A DNA stretch of 64,000 bases, from assembly GCF_014843005.1 (NCBI RefSeq), contig NZ_JACYXM010000004.1, forward strand, positions 126,530 to 190,529, in the 5' to 3' direction. A program made the translations under genes and the position numbers. The DNA comes from Rhodanobacter sp. DHG33 (GTDB lineage Bacteria; Pseudomonadota; Gammaproteobacteria; Xanthomonadales; Rhodanobacteraceae). Positions within the stretch are counted from its first letter, which is position 1. Each line of letters starts with the position of its first letter. This document shows, piece after piece, positions 1-9,635 of the stretch. Under the pieces are notes generated by a model. That model saw nothing but the letters and a program-made list of their open reading frames with translations, searched no databases and was not told the origin of the DNA.

Positions 1-807
1 ACCGATCCCGAGCTGGCGCGTACTATCGGGCGTGATGAGGCAGAAGCTGGCCATGCAGTTCGACCAGCGGAAAAAGTCGTCCGCGGTCAATGACGTCCAG
101 CCACTGATGTCCAGCGTCATCGGATCCTGCTTGAAATTCGCATCGAAACTCTTGGCGATGCGCGGCGTGGCGTTCGTCGGGTCGATTGCGGCGTCGCGGA
201 TGCCGGCCTTCGGAAATTCCTTCTTCGTGATGAACTCATCGAAGCTCATGCCGCTGATTTTCTCTATCACCTGTCGGCGCAGGAACGTGTTGTTATTGTT
301 GTAGGCGTAATGCGTACCGGCCGGATGGTCGAGCTGCTTGAGCGCGCGGAGGTTGCGGTAGGCGTCCGCGTCACTGTGCACGGTGTCCCAATCGATGTCG
401 GGCAATCCGCTCGTGCAGTGCATCAGGTCGTCGATCGTCACCGTTGCCGCCCAGGGCGGCAGATCAGGCAAGAACTTCGACACGGGATCGGTCAGCGAAA
501 GCTTCCCTTCTTGCGCAAGCATCAAGATACCGACGGCATCGAATTCCTTCGAGATCGACCCGATGTCGAACCGGTCCGAAAGCTTCAGGGGAACCGTGCG
601 GGATGCGTCCGCGTAGCCGATTGCGCGGCGAAGAACGACCTTTCCGTGATCCGCAATCAGGATGTTTCCGTTCAACAGGCCCGCTTGGTGGGCCTGGTCA
701 AGGTAGCTGTTAAGTTGGTCAATCGTTGCCGACTGTGCGTGCGCCGCGCACGGTCCGATGATGGTCCAGAAAATGGCGGCAAGAATACCCTTACGAACAA
801 ACGTCAT
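1..807 (-). CDS. Serine hydrolase, beta-lactamase/penicillin-binding class C family, 3' end cut by window edge
   Basis: The minus strand is open from an ATG at 807 to the window edge (269 codons, no stop seen). The first 25 residues form a signal peptide ending around AHAQS, so the enzyme is probably periplasmic or secreted. The SxxK catalytic motif is SISK at residues 84-87 and the YxN motif is YNN at 169-171, in the order and spacing of class C beta-lactamase-like hydrolases (esterases, DD-peptidases and EstB-like enzymes). A GAGGTGA ribosome-binding site lies just upstream. The third active-site motif (KTG/HxG) would lie beyond the window. Substrate cannot be told from the sequence; esterase or peptidase is as likely as lactamase. 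Confidence 0.9.
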   Translation of the reverse strand, partial: MTFVRKGILAAIFWTIIGPCAAHAQSATIDQLNSYLDQAHQAGLLNGNILIADHGKVVLRRAIGYADASRTVPLKLSDRFDIGSISKEFDAVGILMLAQEGKLSLTDPVSKFLPDLPPWAATVTIDDLMHCTSGLPDIDWDTVHSDADAYRNLRALKQLDHPAGTHYAYNNNNTFLRRQVIEKISGMSFDEFITKKEFPKAGIRDAAIDPTNATPRIAKSFDANFKQDPMTLDISGWTSLTADDFFRWSNCMASFCLITPDSTRQLGIG

Positions 808-1183
808 GGTTCACCTCGGAATGGATTTCCAGGAATCTGCTGGGTCTCGCAAAAACCGCAAAGCCGCCGCGTGGCCACGACATGGCGCCACACTCGACTG
901 CGTATCGAGCGTCTGATGCACACCGCCGTGAAAGGGTTTAATCCGGGCGATGGGGCGATGGTGGTTGCGACAACGCCGTTCGCCATAGGCGAAAGCAATC
1001 TTCCATCGCGGAAGGCGGCGATTGCTGGGACGACACTGGACTCTCCAGTGGAGGAGGAGATCAGCCAATACCGAGCCTGTGGCGATAGGATTGGCTGATC
1101 TGAACTGTCCGCTTTCGACCCGAAGCAGACCTTGTTCGATGGCTCCATGAAACAGTTACTTGGAGGAGGCGAAAGCAAACGCT
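808..1183. other. Intergenic region with one hairpin repeat
   Basis: No convincing gene. Several open frames cross it on both strands but none has a ribosome-binding site or normal composition. It holds the promoter side of the serine hydrolase on the left and the first copy of the TGTCCGCTTT-type hairpin repeat at 1106-1130. Confidence 0.6.
1106..1130 (+). repeat. TGTCCGCTTT hairpin repeat, copy 1
   Basis: The consensus is TGTCCGCTTT, six bases (CGACCC), then AAAGCGGACA, an almost perfect 10-bp inverted repeat. This copy has a degenerate right arm (GAAGCAGAC). It is the first of six same-oriented copies between 1.1 and 5.2 kb. Confidence 0.8.
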
Positions 1184-1714
1184 ATGAGGTTTCCAACGCG
1201 TGGGGTCTTCCTTGTGGCTTGTATGGCGCTTATGAATAGTTCCTGGGCCGCTTCGGTTACGCCAAACGCGGCTGACACGGTGAAACGGCTCTATCATGAC
1301 TACTCATGGGAGGCGGTCATGATCGCTGGGCCTGACCCTTGGATCGGCGATGCGCCAAAGGCCACGCTTGATCATTATTTCAACGGTGATCTGGTCGCCA
1401 TATGGCTTAAATCCCGGAAGTGTGGGGGCGATTGTGCCGTCGGCTGGATTGGCTACGATCCGCTCTGGGATAGCATGGATCCTTCGGGGTTTTCCGACGT
1501 GAGCGTTTGGGGCACGGATGATCCGCACATCGTTAAGGTCGAAATGACTGGGCCTTGCGTGCCGGGGAAGGCATGCAAGCCCGAGGGTAGCGGACGAGTT
1601 CGTCTGATCTATTTTTTGCGACCAACAGCGCTTGGTTGGCGCATCTCAGATATTCGGAGTGAGGTACACGGCTCATTGAAGGCCGCTCTCCTGAAGGTAT
1701 CGAGCGAGCATTGA
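1184..1714 (+). CDS. Exported protein of unknown function
   Basis: 176 residues. The start is taken at ATG 1184 behind a GGAGGAGG stretch; an in-frame TTG at 1160 would overlap that ribosome-binding site. Residues 1-23 form a signal peptide (basic MRFPTR, hydrophobic GVFLVACMALM, cleavage near WAASV). The mature part has two cysteine pairs (KCGGDC and CVPGKAC) that could form disulfides, fitting a periplasmic location. The size and C-terminal pattern recall small DUF3828-like periplasmic proteins, but I cannot confirm that. The stop codon is followed after two bases by a hairpin repeat, as in the next gene. Confidence 0.7.
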   Translation: MRFPTRGVFLVACMALMNSSWAASVTPNAADTVKRLYHDYSWEAVMIAGPDPWIGDAPKATLDHYFNGDLVAIWLKSRKCGGDCAVGWIGYDPLWDSMDPSGFSDVSVWGTDDPHIVKVEMTGPCVPGKACKPEGSGRVRLIYFLRPTALGWRISDIRSEVHGSLKAALLKVSSEH

Positions 1715-1716
1715 AC

Positions 1717-1742
1717 TGTCCGCTTTCGACCCATAGCGGACA
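1717..1742 (+). repeat. TGTCCGCTTT hairpin repeat, copy 2
   Basis: TGTCCGCTTT, CGACCC, ATAGCGGACA: a 10-bp inverted repeat with one mismatch, starting two bases after the stop codon of the preceding gene. It could act as a 3'-end stabilising hairpin, although no T-run follows. Confidence 0.85.
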
Positions 1743-1790
1743 CGGATAGCGGCACCTGAGGAGTTCTTTGTGGCTGCCTTCGGGGGAGAT

Positions 1791-2195
1791 ATGAAGTTAA
1801 CTTGTCTTCTGTTGCTGACGACAGTATTGGCGTACGGATGTAGTGGCACTATCAGCACGCAAGTGCCTGCGCGAGTTCAGTTCTGCGATCTTGTAAGCCA
1901 GCCTGCTAGATACGACACGGCCCTGGTCAGGTTCCACGCACACATTGTGAGCGACGGAATCGAGCGCTCGGGGCTTATGGACCCAACTTGCCCAAGACGA
2001 GGCCTGGATTTTGACCTATCTCGAGACGAGGGTGCTTTATCAGATATCGACAACATCCTTTATGGACAAGGCGTGCCAGGAACCACGGATAAAGTTGTCG
2101 AAGCAGATTTCGTTGGTGTTCTTAAGGTGAGCAGGTCTCAACGTATCATTTACGTCACATCCGTTAGCAACATCTCCTTCCATATGATCAAGTAG
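1791..2195 (+). CDS. Small lipoprotein of unknown function
   Basis: 134 residues. ATG 1791 is preceded by GGGGGAGAT; an upstream in-frame GTG at 1770 would destroy the signal peptide layout. Residues 1-17 are a lipoprotein signal ending in the lipobox LAYGC, so the protein should be lipid-anchored at Cys17. The mature part (about 117 residues) looks like a small beta-rich domain with two cysteines (FCDLV and DPTCP). I do not recognise the family. A hairpin repeat begins at the base after the stop codon. The gene sits in a run of same-strand orphan genes and has more A/T than the core genes further right. Confidence 0.7.
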   Translation: MKLTCLLLLTTVLAYGCSGTISTQVPARVQFCDLVSQPARYDTALVRFHAHIVSDGIERSGLMDPTCPRRGLDFDLSRDEGALSDIDNILYGQGVPGTTDKVVEADFVGVLKVSRSQRIIYVTSVSNISFHMIK

Positions 2196-2221
2196 TGTCC
2201 GCTTTCGACCCAAAGCAGACA
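2196..2221 (+). repeat. TGTCCGCTTT hairpin repeat, copy 3
   Basis: TGTCCGCTTT, CGACCC, AAAGCAGACA: inverted repeat with one mismatch, abutting the stop codon of the lipoprotein gene. Confidence 0.85.
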
Positions 2222-2357
2222 TTGCCTGGTGGTCGCGCTGACGGGGTGTCGCGTACGGGAACGGGTACGTTTGCGGGTATTTTCGCAATGCCAACTCTGG
2301 AAATCGTTGTAGGACAATGCTTGCAGCGGATTGTTAGATAGACGCCGCCCCAACACG

Positions 2358-2397
2358 GCCACCTAAGCGATTGATTCGCTTAGGTGGCTTTTTCTTT
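2358..2397 (+). terminator. Rho-independent terminator
   Basis: A perfect 13-bp stem (GCCACCTAAGCGA with TCGCTTAGGTGGC, loop TTGAT) followed by a T-rich run. It stops plus-strand transcription, but no gene ends just before it: the nearest upstream gene ends at 2195, and the 160 bases between hold only a short open reading frame tail ending TAG at about 2340. It may end a lost gene or an unrecognised small RNA. Confidence 0.8.
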
Positions 2398-2461
2398 TCT
2401 GGTGCGGATCGCCTGCGGTACCCGCAGAGCCTGGCGAGCCGAGTTCTGGGCTGTACCCGCC

Positions 2462-2780
2462 GAGCTTTGAGCTCGGTGGGTGGAGCAAAAAGCTCGGCCG
2501 GTGGAGAAAAAAGCTCGGCGCCTCGAGTTATTTGCTCGGCGCATGTAGCTCTGGACTCGGTGCGCCGAGTTATTTGCTCGGCCGGTGGAGCTCTGGACTC
2601 GGCGTGTCGAGCTTTTTGCTCGGCTGGCCGAGCTCAGAACTCGGCGGTTCGAGCTTTTTGCTCGGGCATCCGAGCTGTTGAACTCGGCACGCCGGGCTTT
2701 TTTCTCGGGCCGCCGAGCTTTTTGCTCGACAGCCCGAGTTCGGAGGCTGGCTGGTGGAGCTGTGAGCTCCGCCGGTCAGT
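2462..2780. repeat. Tandem array of 21-bp palindromic units (array 1)
   Basis: About fifteen units in a nearly strict 21-bp period, each a 13-bp inverted repeat of the form GAGC-N5-GCTC followed by an 8-bp spacer beginning GG. The core appears as GAGCTTTTTGCTC, as its reverse complement GAGCAAAAAGCTC, and in variants such as GAGCTCTGGACTC and GAGTTATTTGCTC. Unit starts are at 2462, 2483, 2504, 2525, 2546, 2567, 2588, 2609, 2630, 2651, 2672, 2694, 2715, 2736 and 2757; only one step is 22. Because 21 is a multiple of three and the units lack stops, long frames stay open on both strands, but no conserved protein is apparent. A second array is at 34287-34557. Confidence 0.9.
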
Positions 2781-3132
2781 ACGGCAGATCGCCCGGGTGG
2801 GTTTGCGGGGGCAGGAGTGGCTGGCTGAGTTGTTCGGCTTGTTCGCTGAGGAAGTACAAGGCGGCGAAGAGGCCTTCGGTGGTGGGGGCGTCGAGGGGGT
2901 TGCAGCCGGGGTCGAGGGTGTCGCTTTGGCTGTTGGCGTGCTGGTCGCGGAACGCTTCGCTGTTGGTCAGCACACGGGCGAGGGCGTGGATGGCGATGGT
3001 GAGGCCGGCCAGGGTGGCGGCGTCGTGCTCGTCGGGAGTGGCCTCGGCGCGGGTCCAGTAGGGGCGTGAGAGCGGGTTGGTGGGGCGGGGCGCAGCGGCG
3101 TGTGCGGCTGCCGTATGATCGGGCTTAGCCAT
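2776..3132 (-). CDS. Conserved-looking small soluble protein of unknown function
   Basis: 118 residues. The ATG at 3132 is preceded by GGAG at a six-base spacing. No signal peptide or membrane segment. The N-terminus is Ala/Pro/His-rich (MAKPDHTAAAHAAAPRP), and the rest is helical, ending with a proline-rich tail. The middle (TLAGLTIAIHALARVL) and the motif NPLDAPTTEGLFAAL look like a compact helical domain. I do not recognise the family. The gene ends within the last unit of the 21-bp hairpin array, on the opposite strand to its neighbours, so it may have entered separately from the repeat-punctuated genes around it. Confidence 0.65.
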   Translation of the reverse strand: MAKPDHTAAAHAAAPRPTNPLSRPYWTRAEATPDEHDAATLAGLTIAIHALARVLTNSEAFRDQHANSQSDTLDPGCNPLDAPTTEGLFAALYFLSEQAEQLSQPLLPPQTHPGDLPY

Positions 3133-3429
3133 GATCAACTCCTATCTAGTTGGTTGTGGTCAGCGGGTCGTATGGGTGACAGCCCATGCGGCCCGCGTTG
3201 GTTTGAGGGTGCGGGTTTTCTCCAGCCAGGACGAGGGTACCTTGGCGGTTTCATAGTAAGTGGGGAGAAAAAGAAAATCTGTCAGATAATGGAATAAATC
3301 TGTAGGAATGAGACTTTATTTTGTCATCTTCCAATCGACTATTAATGGGAATATGTTAATCGTGTTTTGGTGGAATCAAAGGGATGATCAAAGAGCACTT
3401 TCGTTTGATGTTTTGAAAATCCAATCTAA

Positions 3430-3600
3430 CCTGGATTTCGTTTGCTTCGAGCGTCCGGCCTAAGCGTTGTCCATCGTCGTGCGTACAGGTGGCTGGCCGA
3501 CGAAGAGCTGGAGCGAGAGGCAACGAAGGACTCCACGGTCACCCTCGAAGGTGCGGCCGAGCATGCCATGACTGTCTTGGCGTATGAGAAGCTAGAGTAG
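3430..3600 (+). pseudogene. Possible 3' remnant of an unknown gene
   Basis: 56 codons open between an in-frame TAA (3427-3429) and a TAG (3598-3600). The translation has normal coding character (for example RRAYRWLADEELERE and VTLEGAAEHAMTVLAYE) but no ATG start; the only candidate is a TTG at 3442 with no clear ribosome-binding site. It ends directly against a hairpin repeat, like the complete genes nearby. It is most likely the tail of a gene whose 5' part was lost; a short real gene is possible. Confidence 0.35.
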
Positions 3601-3624
3601 GTCCGCTTTCGACCCAAAGCAGAC
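3600..3624 (+). repeat. TGTCCGCTTT hairpin repeat, copy 4
   Basis: GGTCCGCTTT, CGACCC, AAAGCAGAC, directly after the TAG of the preceding open frame. Confidence 0.8.
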
Positions 3625-3664
3625 GTTTCTGTAATCAGGCTCTCATTTGGCCAGGAGGGGCAAT

Positions 3665-4147
3665 ATGGTTCCGAGAGGCGGGCTGCCGGATCGTCAGCCA
3701 TCTCCAGTTAGAACGGTCGTTGCGGCACTGCTGGCGCCAGCGGCTGCTCCGCTCCTGAGCTGGTTCTGGATGGCCGTCTACTACCGGTTCTTCGACAGCG
3801 GGCGTGGGCTCGCTCGCTGGTTGCCCTTGGATGATCTCTGGTCGATATATCTCTTTGAATTCTTGATCGCGAGTGTCGCCACATGGGTGATTGGCTACCC
3901 CTTCTATCGCTCGGCCCGCGCTCGCCGCACGGTGAGTGGCACAGGGCTCTGTGTAGTTGGAGGTATAGCCAGCGGCCTCGTCTGGTTGTTGTCCCTATTG
4001 ATTCTTGCCGTCGGCAGTCACCTTTACGCCCCATTTCTGCTCTCATTGATAGGAGCATTCAAGGGCGTGGTGATAGCAGGGGTGTTCTCTGTGTTGGCTG
4101 GTGTTCCGTGGTCTTCAGGGCGCTCGATGTTGTTACAGAACGAGTAG
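3665..4147 (+). CDS. Four-helix integral membrane protein of unknown function
   Basis: 160 residues. ATG 3665 follows AGGAGGGG at an ideal distance; the in-frame TTG at 3647 lies before that site. Four hydrophobic segments are visible at about residues 17-40, 59-80, 92-118 and 122-147, with short basic loops (RSARARR around 82-88). No catalytic motif or known domain is recognised. It is one of several small same-strand genes in this accessory stretch and is followed 40 bases later by a hairpin repeat. Small four-helix membrane proteins of this type are common in mobile gene cassettes, but no attC site follows this one. Confidence 0.7.
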   Translation: MVPRGGLPDRQPSPVRTVVAALLAPAAAPLLSWFWMAVYYRFFDSGRGLARWLPLDDLWSIYLFEFLIASVATWVIGYPFYRSARARRTVSGTGLCVVGGIASGLVWLLSLLILAVGSHLYAPFLLSLIGAFKGVVIAGVFSVLAGVPWSSGRSMLLQNE

Positions 4148-4187
4148 GTTGAAGCTCGGCGACCGGCATGATTCGAGCGACACGTAA

Positions 4188-4213
4188 TGTCCGCTTCCGA
4201 CCCAAAGCGGACA
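4188..4213 (+). repeat. TGTCCGCTTT hairpin repeat, copy 5 (perfect palindrome)
   Basis: TGTCCGCTTC, CGACCC, AAAGCGGACA: the most symmetrical copy; nine of ten arm positions pair. It lies inside an extended frame of the following gene (reading VRFRPKAD there), which is one reason to place that gene's start further downstream. Confidence 0.85.
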
Positions 4214-4272
4214 CTTTCAGTTGCGGCGCGATGCACGCCAGAATCACGAAACAAGGTATCGGGGACTCAAGG

Positions 4273-4647
4273 ATGCGGCCAGGCAAAATCCTCAAAGTGA
4301 TCTTGTTCGTTGTCGGGTTGGCTCTCGCCTTCGTTGGCGCAGGCGCTCTGGCTATGGCAGTTTCGGGCTCGGTGGTTGTAGGCCGATCCAGTGTGTATGC
4401 CCTCGGTGGTGCCCTTCTACTGCTCGCAGCTCCATGCCTCGTCTTGCTCTTCTCTGTTCGGGCTGCCCAAGTCCTGGGCTCATTCGTTCTCATAGCGTTC
4501 TCTCTCGGCACCCTATGGCTGGCGTTTGGGGCGACACCACCAGAACATCCTTGGTTTTTCCAAGCTGCCTCTATCGCCTTTGCGGTGCTGGCAATCTCTC
4601 GTGCCAGGTTGTTCCTGCGCAGCAAAGCTTCTGCGCGGAGCACCTAA
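4273..4647 (+). CDS. Small four-helix membrane protein in an integron-type gene cassette
   Basis: 124 residues from ATG 4273. Upstream in-frame ATGs at 4231 and 4168 are possible, but the frame there runs through a dispersed repeat. Hydrophobic segments lie at about residues 8-30, 41-62, 66-86 and 95-112, and the C-terminus is basic (RARLFLRSKASARST). The TAA stop at 4645-4647 is part of the inverse core site of an attC (4642-4698), as is usual for integron cassette genes whose stop falls in the recombination site. No function is recognised. Expression would depend on an upstream promoter because cassettes rarely carry one. Confidence 0.7.
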   Translation: MRPGKILKVILFVVGLALAFVGAGALAMAVSGSVVVGRSSVYALGGALLLLAAPCLVLLFSVRAAQVLGSFVLIAFSLGTLWLAFGATPPEHPWFFQAASIAFAVLAISRARLFLRSKASARST

Positions 4648-4698
4648 CACCTCGTTCAAAGCGGATGGCTTCGCCGCCGCTCAACCCGGACGTTAAGC
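4642..4698 (+). other. Integron attC recombination site
   Basis: It starts with the inverse core ACCTAAC (consensus RYYYAAC) at 4642-4648 and ends with the core GTTAAGC (consensus GTTRRRY) at 4692-4698. The two cores can pair, and inner arms CGTTCAAAGCGG and CCGCTCAACCCG pair around GGCTTCGCC with an unpaired base in the left arm, as in known attC hairpins. The length of 57 bp is at the short end of the attC range. It overlaps the stop of the upstream membrane-protein gene and precedes the DUF4259 gene by 16 bp. Confidence 0.8.
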
Positions 4699-4714
4699 CC
4701 GTAGGAGAAATTGC

Positions 4715-5122
4715 ATGGGTACTTGGGCACTCCATTCTTTTGCCAACGACGATGCTGGTGACCTCATCGGTAATCTTGTCGAAGGGGCCGACTTGTCACC
4801 CGTCAAAGACGCCATTGAGCGTGTACAAGACACAGCAGGGTACTTGGAAGCACCAGAGGCGCAACAAGGTATCGCAGCTTGCGAGGTAGTAGCGCTTGTG
4901 TTGGGTCACGCATCTGCCGCGTCGCAATCTGAAGAAGAGCTCACAGCGTGGGTGACCCGCGTTAAGCCGTGCGTGGACGTGGCGGTCGTGACTCAAGCAG
5001 TCCAAGTCATCGATCGCGTGCTCGCTCCGGACTCAGAGCTTCGGGAGTTGTGGGAGGAGTCAGATGAGTTCAATGATTGGCGGGCAGAAGTCGGGGCTTT
5101 GCGTGCAAGGCTACAAGCCTAA
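4715..5122 (+). CDS. DUF4259 domain-containing protein, integron cassette gene
   Basis: 135 residues. ATG 4715 is preceded by a TAGGAGA ribosome-binding site. The N-terminus MGTWALHSFANDDAGDL matches the DUF4259 signature (MGTWG-x-x-x-FDND-x-A-x-DF), and the length is typical for the family, whose function is unknown. It is a soluble, acidic helical protein. It begins 16 bases after the core site of one attC and its TAA stop (5120-5122) lies in the inverse core of a second, degenerate attC, so the gene and that site together form a complete cassette. This family is, to my knowledge, frequent in bacterial integron arrays. Confidence 0.85.
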   Translation: MGTWALHSFANDDAGDLIGNLVEGADLSPVKDAIERVQDTAGYLEAPEAQQGIAACEVVALVLGHASAASQSEEELTAWVTRVKPCVDVAVVTQAVQVIDRVLAPDSELRELWEESDEFNDWRAEVGALRARLQA

Positions 5123-5160
5123 CAACTCATTCAAGACGGACGGCTTCGCCGCCGCTTATC
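5117..5160 (+). other. Degenerate attC site closing the DUF4259 cassette
   Basis: The inverse core GCCTAAC is intact at 5117-5123, and the next 36 bases closely match the first attC (CATTCAAGACGGACGGCTTC then GCCGCCGCTTA). The expected core GTTRRRY is missing: the sequence continues as TCTCCGCTCTGACC. The site has probably lost its 3' core, which would freeze the cassette in place. Confidence 0.65.
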
Positions 5161-5216
5161 TCCGCTCTGACCGCGACGACGCTTGTGAGGTGAACGGCTG
5201 AGCGGCGTATCGAAAG

Positions 5217-5240
5217 GTCCGCTTTCGACCCAAAGCAGAC
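5217..5240 (+). repeat. TGTCCGCTTT hairpin repeat, copy 6
   Basis: GTCCGCTTT, CGACCC, AAAGCAGAC, about 60 bases after the degenerate attC and 105 before the permease start. It is the last copy of the dense cluster. Confidence 0.8.
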
Positions 5241-5344
5241 GTGACCGTTCGTAGTAGTAGCCTTGACCATGATGTCAGCGCCCTGATCGAAGCCCATGGG
5301 TTCAGGCGATCAACTTCATTGGTGTGCGCAAACAGGGGGCAACC

Positions 5345-6745
5345 ATGGAGCCGCACAGTTTCGAAGTCATTGCCGAACGAGAGAAAGGCTTGCGACGCAG
5401 CCTTTCGACGGCACAGCTCTCGATGATTGCCATTGGTGGCGCGATCGGTACCGGGTTGTTCCTTGGCAGTGGCTTTGCGATCAGCTTCGCAGGCCCGAGT
5501 GTGCTTGTGAGCTACGCAATCGGCGCGCTGATCGCGCTGTTGCTGATGGGATGCCTTGCGGAGATGACGGTTGCGCATCCCACTTCCGGATCTTTTGGCG
5601 CGTACGCCGAGTACTACATAGGGCCGTGGGCCGGGTTCATGGTGCGCTACGCGTACTGGTCGTCGATCGTGATCGCCGTAGGCACCGAGGCGACCGCCAT
5701 TGCCGTCTATATGAAATATTGGTTACCCGACATTCCGGGCTGGTACTGGATCGTCGGTTTTTCGGGTGCGCTCGTTGGCGTCAACGCTGTGAGCGTCAAG
5801 GTGTTCGGCTCGGTCGAATACGTGTTCTCCATGCTCAAGATCGCGGCGATCGTGGCCTTCATCGTCCTAGGTGCATGGATGGTGGCTGGCGCGCCCTCGG
5901 GTTCAGGCATCGGGCTGGCGAACTACACCGTGCATGGCGGCTTCTTTCCGAAAGGCGTCTGGGGCATGTGGGTGGCCGTGATCGTCGCGATCTTCAGCTA
6001 TCTGAGCATCGAGATGATTGCCGTCGCGGCCGGCGAGGCCAGCGAGCCCCGACAAGCCGTTATTCGAGCGTTCCGGGCAACGGTGTTGCGCCTGGTGTTG
6101 TTCTATCTGCTGACCCTGGCGTTGATGCTGGCCATTGTGCCTTGGACGGCAGCCGGAACCGGACAAAGTCCCTTCGTGAGAGTCATGGTTGCGACGCATA
6201 TACCGGGCGCTCCCGGCGTCATCAACTTCGTGATACTCGTGGCCGCACTCTCGGCGATGAACAGCCAGCTCTACACCTCGACACGCATGATGTTCAGCCT
6301 TGCGCGAGCGGGCTACGCTCCGCGGCGCTTTGGCCAACTCAACAGACATGGCGTGCCGGTGGCGGCACTCCTGCTCTCGGCCACCGGTATCGCGCTGGCT
6401 ACGGTAGTGAATGCACTGCATCCGGACACGTCCTTCATCCTGATGCTGGCGATCTCGATGGTGGCCCCGATGTTTACCTGGTTCATGATCTTCGTCACCC
6501 ACCTATTCTTCCGTCGCCGCCATCGCGACGAAGCTCTTGGATTTCGCATGTGGGGTTACCCGGCAACGCCGCTTCTGGGCGCGGGGCTCATGCTTGGCGC
6601 ACTCCTGACGACGATCTTCACGCGCGAGTTCCGCATGACCTTGTTGTTCGGCGTACCGTTCCTTGCGCTGCTTGCGCTCGCTTACCGCTTTTGGCGTCGT
6701 GGATGGTTGCGGGAGCGAGGGGTTGAGAGCGAGGTGCTTGGCTGA
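5345..6745 (+). CDS. Amino acid permease, APC superfamily (AAT type)
   Basis: 466 residues. ATG 5345 follows AGGGGGC; an in-frame GTG at 5324 is less likely. The protein has about twelve hydrophobic segments and the family hallmark GGAIGTGLFLGSG at residues 31-43 in the first helix, which contributes to the substrate site in this superfamily. It is expected to take up amino acids across the inner membrane by proton symport. The overall pattern resembles proline, GABA or aromatic amino acid permeases of the AAT family; substrate cannot be fixed. It is a single transcription unit ending before a long inverted repeat. Confidence 0.92.
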   Translation: MEPHSFEVIAEREKGLRRSLSTAQLSMIAIGGAIGTGLFLGSGFAISFAGPSVLVSYAIGALIALLLMGCLAEMTVAHPTSGSFGAYAEYYIGPWAGFMVRYAYWSSIVIAVGTEATAIAVYMKYWLPDIPGWYWIVGFSGALVGVNAVSVKVFGSVEYVFSMLKIAAIVAFIVLGAWMVAGAPSGSGIGLANYTVHGGFFPKGVWGMWVAVIVAIFSYLSIEMIAVAAGEASEPRQAVIRAFRATVLRLVLFYLLTLALMLAIVPWTAAGTGQSPFVRVMVATHIPGAPGVINFVILVAALSAMNSQLYTSTRMMFSLARAGYAPRRFGQLNRHGVPVAALLLSATGIALATVVNALHPDTSFILMLAISMVAPMFTWFMIFVTHLFFRRRHRDEALGFRMWGYPATPLLGAGLMLGALLTTIFTREFRMTLLFGVPFLALLALAYRFWRRGWLRERGVESEVLG

Positions 6746-6761
6746 TCGAATAAATCGAGAG

Positions 6762-6798
6762 CAGAGTGCACTTTCCAACTCCTGAAAAGTGCACTCTG
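6762..6798. repeat. CACTCTGACCCC-type inverted repeat, possible bidirectional terminator
   Basis: A perfect 13-bp stem (CAGAGTGCACTTT with AAAGTGCACTCTG, 11-base loop) followed by ACCCCAGTTTTCC. It lies between two convergent genes and could terminate both. The right arm plus GACCCCAGTTTT is shared with dispersed copies near 39.6, 41.5, 42.3 and 42.4 kb. Similar elements are frequent in Xanthomonadales genomes as far as I recall. Confidence 0.8.
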
Positions 6799-6818
6799 AC
6801 CCCAGTTTTCCGGTTGGA

Positions 6819-7805
6819 CTAAAGACGAACAACGAACTTGCCGAGCGCGCGGTCGCTTTCAATCAGGCTGTGTGCGTGACGGACGTCGTCGAAACGGAAC
6901 GTGGCAGTGCGCAGCGAGGGCATGCGGCCAGCAGCAATCTGTTGGGCAACCCACTTCAACGGTGAATCTTGCAGAGGCATGGCTGATGTACCCAGCAGAC
7001 CACTGGGAAAGAAATTTAGACGTACGGCGTGGGGCAAGTCCTGCATCAGATGCAACTGTTCGACCACGGGCGGACCACCCAACAGGCCGATCACCGAAAC
7101 TCCGCCGAATGGCCGCACCGTCTTCACTGAGTCGCGAAGGGTCGAGGCGCCTACCACCTCCAGCACGGCGTCGACACCGGACGGGACGATTTCCCGCACT
7201 GTGGATGCAATCTCGCCGCTGTCGATGACAACCTCGTCGGCGCCCATGTCTTGCAGACGAAACTTGTTCGCCGATGAGCGTGTCGTCGCGATGACGCGCA
7301 GGCCCCGCGCTTTGGCGTACGTCACAGCGGCAAGGCCCACTGAAGACGTAGCACCCCGGACCAATAGAGTTTGGCCGGCCTCAATGGCAAGGCTTCGGTC
7401 CAGAGCACCCCAGACGGTGAGGTAAGCCTCGGGTAGCGCGGCGAGTTCCTCCCACGACAGACTGGCCTGGTCCAGCGACACGACATTCTGGCGCAGCACG
7501 GTGACCTGTTCTGCGTAGCTGCCGTTGCGACTGAACTGTAGGCCTCCCATCGCCGTTGCTACGCATTCGCCAGTGCGGAACACTCCTGCGGGATCGTGGA
7601 TCACTTCACCTACGGCCTCGATTCCTGGCACCACCGGGCTTGAGATCGGGCCCATGCGGCCAAGGCGACGATAGATCTCGGCGCGGTTAAGGCCGAAGGC
7701 TCGCACGCGAATTTGCAGTTCGTCTTTACCGGGCTCTTGCGAATCAATGTCACGCAGCTCAAGTACTTCAGGGCCGCCCGCTCGTTCGATCACATAGGCT
7801 TGCAT
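6819..7805 (-). CDS. Zinc-independent MDR alcohol dehydrogenase / quinone oxidoreductase
   Basis: 328 residues. The ATG at 7805 follows a GAGG ribosome-binding site that overlaps the end of the upstream gene. The N-terminal GroES-like domain (MQAYVIERAGGPEVLEL, FGLNRAEIYRRLG, PGIEAVGEV) and the Rossmann NAD(P)H-binding segment LVRGATSSVGLAAVTYAKARG are typical of the quinone oxidoreductase branch; the zinc-ligand cysteine cluster of classical alcohol dehydrogenases is absent. It likely reduces quinones or enones in the cytosol. It lies 11 bp after the SnoaL-like gene in the same operon, divergent from a LysR regulator that probably controls both. Confidence 0.9.
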   Translation of the reverse strand: MQAYVIERAGGPEVLELRDIDSQEPGKDELQIRVRAFGLNRAEIYRRLGRMGPISSPVVPGIEAVGEVIHDPAGVFRTGECVATAMGGLQFSRNGSYAEQVTVLRQNVVSLDQASLSWEELAALPEAYLTVWGALDRSLAIEAGQTLLVRGATSSVGLAAVTYAKARGLRVIATTRSSANKFRLQDMGADEVVIDSGEIASTVREIVPSGVDAVLEVVGASTLRDSVKTVRPFGGVSVIGLLGGPPVVEQLHLMQDLPHAVRLNFFPSGLLGTSAMPLQDSPLKWVAQQIAAGRMPSLRTATFRFDDVRHAHSLIESDRALGKFVVRL

Positions 7806-7816
7806 GATCGTTGACC

Positions 7817-8194
7817 TCAGGCGCGCGGTTGGTTGGTGGCGAACAGGTAACGGTGAATCTTCCAAACCCCTTTCTCGCGGCGGAAGACGAACAGCTCGTT
7901 GTTGCCTTCCGATACCTCTGCGTTCATCGCAAGGATGGTTGTGCGGCCGGCGGAGCTTGTGCGTGCCCACGCCCAGTCACCTGTCTCCTGGATTTCATGA
8001 ATCTCGAATCGGATGTCGAGCTTGATCGTGGCGAACACGTGCTCGTACCCAGCACGCACGGCGTCGCGACCGACAAGTGCCGAGGCATGCTGTGGCATGA
8101 AAATCGGCTCGCTTCCGTAAAGGTCGAGAATGGCATCGGTGTCGTTTGCGTTGAGCGCCTTCTCGTAGGACTGCAGAACAGACTGGATAGACAT
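7817..8194 (-). CDS. SnoaL-like / NTF2-family protein
   Basis: 125 residues. It starts with MSIQSVLQSYEKALNANDTDAILDLYGS, the standard opening helix of NTF2-like small proteins, and ends with the curved sheet pattern VWKIHRYLFATNQ. The family (SgcJ/YybH-like) includes small hydrolases, isomerases and accessory proteins; no specific activity is evident. It is the first gene of a two-gene unit with the quinone oxidoreductase and is transcribed away from the LysR gene, with 117 bp between. Confidence 0.85.
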   Translation of the reverse strand: MSIQSVLQSYEKALNANDTDAILDLYGSEPIFMPQHASALVGRDAVRAGYEHVFATIKLDIRFEIHEIQETGDWAWARTSSAGRTTILAMNAEVSEGNNELFVFRREKGVWKIHRYLFATNQPRA

Positions 8195-8272
8195 GCTGGT
8201 GACTCCGGTTGATGCCGTCGGAATGAGCGGCTGGAGCGCACTTTGAACCTATCGTTTAAGCAAGAGAATGCG

Positions 8273-8301
8273 CATATTTGATATGATTTCTATCAAATAT
8301 G
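8273..8301. promoter_or_regulatory. Palindromic operator in the LysR divergent promoter
   Basis: A perfect 11-bp inverted repeat, CATATTTGATA and TATCAAATATG, separated by TGATTTC. It lies between the divergent lysR-type gene and the SnoaL/oxidoreductase operon and reaches the ribosome-binding site (GAGAGG) of the regulator gene, so binding there should repress the regulator's own expression. The spacing is compatible with a LysR recognition site (T-N11-A). Confidence 0.7.
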
Positions 8302-8311
8302 AGAGGACTTT

Positions 8312-9196
8312 ATGGACCTCAATGCTGTCCAAATGTTTGTCGGCGTAGTCCAGGCCGGCAGTCTGTCGGCCGGGGCGGCAAGGCTCGGATTGCCGCTACC
8401 AACGGTAAGCCGGCGTATCCGTGATTTGGAGCGGCAGTTGAATGTTCAATTGCTGGAGCGATCGGTGCGCGGCACGCGCCTTACCGATGCGGGCACGCGG
8501 CTGTACGAACACGCCGGCCGCGGCATTGAAGCATTGCAGGAGGCTGAGCAGGCGTTGGTCAGCGACGAGGCGCGGCTCAAGGGTCGCCTTCGCTTGTCCT
8601 TGCCGCCGACATTCGAGCCATGGTGGGAACTTCTCTCGCTGTTTCAGCAGCGCTATCCGGATATCGAGCTGTGCGTCTATACGACGGAACGTCGCGTCGA
8701 CCTCATCGAAGACGGCATTGACGTTGCGTTGCGCGTTGGTTCGATCGTGCATGAAGCCATGGTGGCCCGGCGCATGCTTTCCTATCGTCATGTGCTGGTG
8801 GCTGGTCGCGCGCTCGTCGAACGCTTGGGTATGCCGGAATCGGTGGATGCACTCCACCGATTCCCATGTGCGGTCTGGTCGCCGGGAGGCAATGCCACCA
8901 ACAGCTGGCGCCTGGGCGATACCACAATCTCGCCACGCGGCATCCTAACGACCAACGACTATGCGCATTTGCGGAGTCGTGCACTTGCCGGGGAGGTCGT
9001 CACCGAGTTGCCACCATTCTTGGCGGATGGAGCGCTTCGCACAGGTGAATTGATCGCCCTATTGCCGGGGCAGCCGATGCCTGAGCAGAATTTGCAGTTG
9101 CTTTATCCATCACATCGGCATCCATCTGCCATCGTCCGCGCGTACCTAGACTTCTCTCAGGAGCAAGTACGCGTGTTGATGAACGCCGCACCGTAG
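8312..9196 (+). CDS. LysR-type transcriptional regulator
   Basis: 294 residues. The N-terminal winged helix is clear: MDLNAVQMFVGVVQAGSLSAGAARLGLPLPTVS at 1-33, followed by the linker helix and a periplasmic-binding-like effector domain from about residue 90 (LRLSLPPTFEP...). It belongs to the CrgA-like branch with the short effector domain. The ATG is preceded by GAGAGG. It is divergent from the SnoaL/quinone oxidoreductase pair, the usual layout for a LysR protein and its target, with a strong palindrome between. The inducer is unknown. Confidence 0.92.
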   Translation: MDLNAVQMFVGVVQAGSLSAGAARLGLPLPTVSRRIRDLERQLNVQLLERSVRGTRLTDAGTRLYEHAGRGIEALQEAEQALVSDEARLKGRLRLSLPPTFEPWWELLSLFQQRYPDIELCVYTTERRVDLIEDGIDVALRVGSIVHEAMVARRMLSYRHVLVAGRALVERLGMPESVDALHRFPCAVWSPGGNATNSWRLGDTTISPRGILTTNDYAHLRSRALAGEVVTELPPFLADGALRTGELIALLPGQPMPEQNLQLLYPSHRHPSAIVRAYLDFSQEQVRVLMNAAP

Positions 9197-9635
9197 TCCG
9201 TGCTTCGGGCGGCCCCGTCCGCGCCCAACTCGCGAGCGCAGGACTTCGACGGGTGCGCGACGGCGACATTCTTGAAGTAGCGGCCGGGCTCAGCGGCCAG
9301 TTCGTCGCGCATGCTGAGGACGTCCGCTTTCGACCCATGGCAGACCTTATGCGCGCAAGGGCGCCGAAGCGTGCCGAGCGCGATCGGAGTGCGTCCGATC
9401 TTCTTCGCGCCGGACCCGCAACGAGCCGCGGAAGGGTCGGACCGCGGCCATCGCATCGGATAGCGCGACTGCTAGCCGGCGCCGCGTGGTGGCATCTTCG
9501 AAACGCGGTCTCCGTGAACGTCTCCGCTTTCGATCTAAGCCGCACTAGCCGCCCATGGAAATGACGATGCCATGGCCGGTCCGTTCAAAGGCGACCATGG
9601 CATTCCGGAAGTAGTCGTACCGGCGAAGCGCCGAT
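9197..9635. other. Intergenic region with decayed coding fragments and two hairpin repeats
   Basis: No intact gene. The minus strand of 9198-9310 reads like a coding fragment (MRDELAAEPGRYFKNVAVAH) and that of about 9542-9620 reads RYDYFRNAMVAFERTGHGIV up to a stop, but neither has a start or a full domain. Copies of the TGTCCGCTTT repeat are at 9322-9344 (good) and 9520-9543 (degenerate). It looks like a graveyard of one or two lost minus-strand genes. Confidence 0.45.
9322..9344 (+). repeat. TGTCCGCTTT hairpin repeat, copy 7
   Basis: GTCCGCTTT, CGACCC, ATGGCAGAC; same family as the cluster at 1.1-5.2 kb. A more degenerate copy (TCTCCGCTTTCGATCTAAGC) follows at 9521. Confidence 0.7.

Follow-up and report, generated by a model that had tools for sequence, protein, structure and literature searches.

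Two attC sites lie 475 bp apart near the start of the window, which is the whole 64-kb stretch of Rhodanobacter sp. DHG33 DNA analyzed here (Table 1), and each of them takes in the end of a gene. The stop codon of the upstream gene (TAA, 4645-4647) falls within the R'' box of attC site 1, and that of the DUF4259 gene between the sites (TAA, 5120-5122) falls within the R'' box of attC site 2, so both have the form of cassette genes, i.e., a single ORF with its stop within the attC. An earlier note on this DNA had claimed a complete attC (ACCTAAC, GTTAAGC and pairing inner arms) and a second one with intact inverse core and lost 3' core, the two bracketing a DUF4259 gene, with a preceding gene that ends inside the first site; each of these points is borne out, and its span of 4642-5160 is correct to within ~12 bases. 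The genes around the attC pair are delimited by a second, non-attC repeat, the palindrome aatGTCCGCTTTCGACCCAAAGCGGACat, which is absent from that note. Six copies lie in the first 5.3 kb of the window and a seventh at 9322, all on the plus strand, and 100 shuffles produced none.

Table 1. Coordinates of the attC sites, cassette genes and palindromic repeats (positions without a prefix are those of the window)
Feature	Position	Strand	Details
attC site 1	4642-4698	+	R'' ACCTAAC (4642-4648), R' GTTAAGC (4692-4698); R2 46.9 bits, E 1.6e-9
attC site 2, decayed	5117-5171	+	R'' GCCTAAC (5117-5123) and inner arms kept, R' lost; R2 36.8 bits, E 6e-7
Upstream cassette gene	4273-4647	+	124 aa from ATG 4273, 159 aa from ATG 4168; no Pfam match
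DUF4259 cassette gene	4715-5122	+	135 aa; PF14078, E 1.3e-28
Palindromic repeat copy 1	1107-1130	+	GTCCGCTTTCGACCCAAAGCGGAC family
Palindromic repeat copy 2	1718-1741	+	
Palindromic repeat copy 3	2197-2220	+	
Palindromic repeat copy 4	3601-3624	+	
Palindromic repeat copy 5	4189-4212	+	upstream of attC site 1 cassette gene
Palindromic repeat copy 6	5217-5240	+	45 bases past broken attC site 2
Palindromic repeat copy 7	9322-9345	+	3 mismatches, outlying
Repeat-to-repeat unit	1107-1741	+	one ORF, 1160-1714; recurs in C3 island (L178 8091-8725)
Palindrome island C3	C3:12888-25673	all +	12 copies
Palindrome island C11	C11:581533-584795	all -	6 copies
Palindrome island C38 (window)	C38:113550-135874	all +	11 copies
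Palindrome island C41	C41:86513-103941	all -	13 copies
Genomic attC clusters			C38 (window), 2 sites; C40, 6; C41, 3; C43, 4 (one 6 kb from the rest)

Both core boxes of attC site 1 fit the pattern RYYYAAC/GTTRRRY, and five of the seven R pairs are standard. Four of its 20 model pairs are non-standard (two in the R stem and two in the inner arms), and it is identical to the regional consensus at 47 of 57 positions; the 21 model sites with a length of 57 nt agree with that consensus at a median of 54 positions, and at no fewer than 48. In attC site 2, CTGACCG stands where R' is expected, so that R'' has no R' to pair with and the site is classed as a decayed attC. Both sites have inner L''/L' arms and score significantly with R2, the attC covariance model built here, and they are its two matches at E ≤1 in the window, both on the plus strand. 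An Rfam scan of the window returned no family at gathering score, and relaxed E-values over positions 1-9000 brought out nothing attC-like. Searching the genome for the core-box pattern (core first) was uninformative, with 17 matches per strand against 21 in the reversed control. No sigma-70-like site was found between 3500 and 5400, which is a weak indicator as to a Pc promoter.

The model comprises 57 positions and 20 pairs and was made from 34 distinct sites of related genomes; these training sites were core-box plus hairpin matches in the relatives' loci, the loci of Rhodanobacter sp. DHG33 having been excluded beforehand. Because the source loci were mostly found by similarity to the window stretch, R2 is independent of it in sequence but not in search path, and its E-values, coming from a model made for this analysis, are rough. 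RNAalifold recovered the R stem alone from the attC alignment, and the inner arms were set by hand and checked by pair counting. Paired cells make up 91.3% of the hairpin as compared to 87.7% in shuffles, and double-changed cells number 20 as compared to 7.1, with none of 500 shuffles as high in either case; on two stricter covariation measures, 45 and 81 of the 500 shuffles came up to the observed value. Versions of the pairing slid along the alignment score worse.

Since palindromes of another family abound at this locus, we considered whether the two sites might not be attC at all, being either chance palindromes or a local palindromic repeat misread as attC. We regard this as highly improbable. 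R2 scores both sites significantly (E 1.6e-9 and 6e-7) and a stop codon lies in each R'' box, whereas in palindrome islands C3 and C11 the best R2 match has an E of 0.4, so that the unit borders there carry no attC signal. Among 18 stretches scanned, the R2 matches at E ≤0.001 were the three attC sites of C41 and nothing else.

The product of the upstream gene is, judged by eye, a putative membrane protein. The DUF4259 protein is predicted to be all-helical (mean pLDDT 91.4), and its model has no fold match in the PDB at E ≤0.001. NCBIfam gave no match for either cassette product, and PADLOC found nothing for the three genes tested. The DUF4259 protein occurs in 4 of the 99 genomes searched, including Rhodanobacter sp. 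DHG33 itself, and in none of the 14 other genomes of the genus; among the matches listed, the similarity of positions 4600-5220 to relatives is confined to attC parts and a few adjacent bases, except for one 27-base match. The arrangement is thus not ordinary sequence fixed in the relatives, the circumstance that the earlier note had named as speaking against it. Three DUF4259 homologs elsewhere (L065-L067) have no attC at E ≤0.5 within their 3.4-kb loci, and a plasmid homolog in Acaryochloris shares 36% identity. A contig scan that used a single DUF4259 protein as its query, with a reach of close relatives only, found none. The closest match of the downstream permease is in genome G008, and the contig compared shares no upstream neighborhood with the window, so it does not supply a before/after pair.

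The earlier note had reported the window to be free of integrase genes, and this extends to the whole genome assembly: the search for IntI gave no match over the TIGR02249 cut-off, and the tyrosine recombinases that the IntI searches found (a congener IntI served as one query) are XerC and XerD, each over its own curated cut-off. The attC pair is not alone in this genome, in which R2 identified 15 attC at E ≤0.1, 13 of them reaching E ≤0.001, grouped in four clusters with one strand per cluster (Table 1), and a weak extra site on C22 (18.7 bits, E 0.057). The scores of these sites run from 28.9 to 50.1 bits with one exception at 73.3, and of 11 sites inspected, only attC site 1 and the site at C43:100114 keep both core boxes.

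One alternative is that the pair belongs to a still active integron, with an integrase gene that fell into a gap of the assembly or is carried by a replicon that was not assembled. The assembly consists of 43 contigs, so an unassembled intI is conceivable, and among the nine congeners with intI, five have it within ~2.2 kb of a contig end, which indicates that integrons break assemblies; the retention of both core boxes in two sites also points this way. Against it stand an estimated completeness of 99.99%, the low scores, and the 9 of 11 inspected sites that lack a core box. In addition, all 15 own attC are at least 25 kb away from the nearest contig end, which makes an unassembled integron unlikely. 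We judge an active integron to be quite improbable.

Other members of the genus do possess the enzyme. An intI gene over the family cut-off is present in 9 of 15 genus genomes, i.e., in 9 of 14 congeners and not in Rhodanobacter sp. DHG33. The genus genomes with intI have 25, 40, 16, 17, 31, 24, 2, 16 and 16 attC at E ≤0.001, as compared to 13, 4, 2, 0, 1 and 0 in those that lack it, three of these six being under 90% complete. Among 25 loci examined, intI adjoins ubiA in six (one a duplicate), representing five genomes of three genera (the congeners G012, G004 and G005, Fulvimonas soli, and Frateuria sp. Soil773); these three congeners are among the nine with intI, and in the remaining loci, those of the other six congeners included, ubiA is absent from the stretch examined. 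The intI beside ubiA is broken in two congeners, with an internal stop in G004 (L062) and in pieces in G005 (L063), the latter having 2 attC at E ≤0.001. In Rhodanobacter sp. DHG33, the 1.5 kb upstream of ubiA contain no intI, and it is possible that intI was lost from beside this gene. None of the ORFs around the relatives' intI has a homolog next to the attC clusters of Rhodanobacter sp. DHG33, and the cassettes may therefore owe their insertion here to an integrase acting from elsewhere.

We conclude, with a probability of roughly 0.92, that the attC pair is a CALIN, i.e., what remains, in a Rhodanobacter lineage without detectable intI, of a sedentary chromosomal integron of the Xanthomonadales type. 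A CALIN is a cluster of attC sites lacking an integron integrase (IntegronFinder 2, PMC9024848), and here two attC in series on one strand, one of them decayed, are accompanied by no intI, the gene that a complete integron would have. Where the earlier note left a choice between an orphan cassette cluster and the relic of a chromosomal integron, a relic fits better than a lone orphan cassette, given the three other attC clusters in the genome, the decay of most of the sites inspected and the negative search for an integrase. CALINs are already known biology, and absence of the integrase is ordinary: the IntegronFinder 2 survey counts 2961 CALINs and 2760 complete integrons. Compared with CALINs as described there (PMC9024848), the present one differs in that one of its two sites lacks R' and that the cluster is embedded in an array of another palindrome.

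As for how the locus came about, a past integron integrase, acting by recombination on the folded strand of attC sites, would have set the two cassettes in series; the integrase would later have been lost, and the attC sites would then have decayed. If the known mechanism of the integrase is any guide, the DUF4259 cassette would now be locked in place, since its exit needs the R' of attC site 2, which is lost, whereas attC site 1 may still be able to recombine should the cell acquire an integrase.

This picture resembles the inactivated integrons of Xanthomonas, a genus of the same order, in which intI is truncated or absent in most strains and CALINs lie elsewhere in the chromosome, away from the integrase site (PMC12444791). 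The location of the integrase differs, as the Xanthomonas intI lies mostly downstream of ilvD (PMC12444791), whereas the intI of the relatives examined here is beside ubiA in five places and beside something else in the others. The sites also seem similar to the short attC of the order, the Xanthomonadales-like attC clade (PMC8352920). Environmental integrase classes nearest to Rhodanobacteraceae have been reported (PMC9176274), and the name Rhodanobacter does not occur in PMC12444791 or, among the matches listed, in PMC8352920.

Less ordinary than the CALIN itself is its position inside a row of genes separated by a uniformly oriented palindrome, which looks like a second cassette-style array. 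At ≤3 mismatches the palindrome has 45 copies genome-wide and the reversed control none; 42 of the 45 fall into four islands, each with all its copies on one strand (Table 1), and three are single. The loop is asymmetric and gives the repeat a direction. Packing within the islands is uneven, and of the 49 intervals at ≤5 mismatches, seven exceed 1600 bp (up to 7270) and one measures 68 bp. In 37 of the remaining 41 intervals (one tie counted), the longest ORF is on the strand of the repeat, and in 25 its stop lies ≤30 bp from the next repeat. Viewed from the repeats, a same-strand ORF of at least 60 aa stops ≤30 bp upstream of 26 of 43 copies, as compared to 11% of random positions, and the opposite-strand mirror of this arrangement occurs twice. 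Most of the cargo lacks a Pfam match at E ≤0.01: the 15 families found each occur in one of 35 proteins, at least 20 of which have no match. Three of five attC loci have a palindrome island or a single copy no more than 3.5 kb away, for which the random probability is ~2e-4, calculated post hoc and with the weak C22 site included.

One whole unit is shared between two islands. The unit at 1107-1741 and its copy in the C3 island are 98.9% identical over 635 bp, and their flanks differ: of the 20 bases just outside, only 4 agree on the side of the first repeat and 12 on that of the second, which places the limits of the identity at the repeats. Another unit of the C3 island (L178 3285-3912) resembles part of a C41 unit, with 89% identity over 620 bp; the likeness runs from one repeat to near the next, and the border repeat on C41 is worn. 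The unit that holds the attC site 1 gene has its first 80 bases in common with a C41 unit that also contains attC.

Other features were observed in and around the islands. The window segment 2411-3348 (~0.9 kb) has many short internal repeats and recurs at 84-86% identity within or next to the C11 and C41 islands, and a sub-threshold Rfam match to symR (49.3 bits) lies inside this segment at 3127-3199. The C11 island (L179 1-8796, i.e., C11:576000-584795) is ~4 kb from a gene for an ILVD/EDD-family dehydratase, either ilvD or edd; ilvD is the gene downstream of which the Xanthomonas integron is located (PMC12444791).

Beyond this genome the palindrome is sparse. In an even draw of 398 Pseudomonadota genomes, Rhodanobacter sp. 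DHG33 has its 45 copies, while 35 of the other 397 have any and the richest has 7; the reversed control matched 7 genomes, once each, so some of the single matches elsewhere are due to chance. At ≤4 mismatches it was absent from 1.23 Mb of loci, of which almost all come from other genomes (~26 kb being own loci that lack the repeat) and most lie around attC or intI, and it was likewise absent from 60 evenly spaced 20-kb stretches of the congener G012 (1.2 of 3.72 Mb). Some other genomes have similar palindromes, either as single copies or with copies on both strands (L204, L195, L202 and L203). Plasmids of Pantoea and Klebsiella carry a similar one with ~4 mismatches and weak E-values (175 records at E ≤10); in a single Pantoea record, one of four places was examined, and there the palindrome lies between ordinary genes. 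Viral contigs contribute eight stretches with the palindrome, of which L185 and L190 carry four one-strand copies each at ≤5 mismatches, with a same-strand stop ≤30 bp upstream of 2 of 3 and 3 of 3 copies, respectively, at ≤3 mismatches. The genes beside these palindromes include those for an ADP-ribosylglycohydrolase and phage morphogenesis. In L190, an IMG/VR contig, each of the four copies (114-2622) lies just after a gene, and the run, which starts past a phage morphogenesis (tail) gene, has the look of cargo inserted into a prophage. In genome G396 (L192, L193 and L200), short runs on one strand are made up of a palindrome that is related but not the same, often with a GTCCGC-type motif just upstream.

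The palindrome may be a REP-like intergenic element or gene-end element that is frequent in these islands by coincidence and has nothing to do with gene movement, perhaps spread by a TnpA-REP (RAYT) enzyme or else retained behind genes because it terminates transcription or stabilizes the messenger, and we consider this moderately probable. It is short, present in many copies (45) and located between genes, with 26 of 43 copies within 30 bp after a stop, as REP are, and its occurrence elsewhere as single or both-stranded copies, including the plasmid copy between ordinary genes, agrees with such an element. A simple terminator pattern matches the copy at 4188-4213, although such matches are at chance level there (2 as compared to 2.3 expected). 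REP elements have a GTAG/GGAG foot, whereas no such guide foot is conserved in the palindrome flanks, where the consensus is weak (aAt before and aT after). A gene-end element would also be expected genome-wide rather than with 42 of 45 copies in four one-strand islands, nor would one expect a whole unit common to two islands with its breakpoints at the repeats. Short hairpin repeats between genes (REP) and HuH transposases (TnpA-REP and IS200/IS605) are well known (PMC6006769), and the palindrome is like the former in form. It is unlike REP (PMC6006769) in that its islands are one-stranded, have mostly one gene per interval and share a whole unit. A scan of 53 distinct proteins from the islands and their surroundings, with the C38 flanks little covered, found neither a recombinase nor a transposase, TnpA-REP included.

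A more tentative reading is that the islands constitute a second, attC-free cassette system of single genes and directly oriented 28-bp hairpin repeats, with exchange of units between chromosomal islands. The stop codon would then lie at the edge of the repeat and genes would be exchanged as repeat-to-repeat units, perhaps by an enzyme acting on single-strand hairpins, e.g., an HuH (Y1) transposase, or by recombination between repeats, and attC cassettes and hairpin cassettes might use common landing places. Because the palindrome is single or both-stranded elsewhere, occurs in an ordinary plasmid context, is absent from the sampled part of G012, and is accompanied by no recombinase among the 53 proteins scanned, we hold a cassette system to be possible but rather doubtful. 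We found no description of palindrome islands or palindrome-bounded arrays in the open-licence literature, as judged from titles and abstract openings, and the letters of the repeat and its peptide readings led to no paper other than an unrelated one on cancer.

If the palindrome islands were a cassette system of their own, they would be a second bacterial way to stockpile single genes, one that uses a much simpler site than attC and holds cargo mostly of unassigned kind. The attC pair, read as the relic of an integron, documents in Rhodanobacter the course described for Xanthomonas, in which the integrase is lost and cassettes are left stranded.
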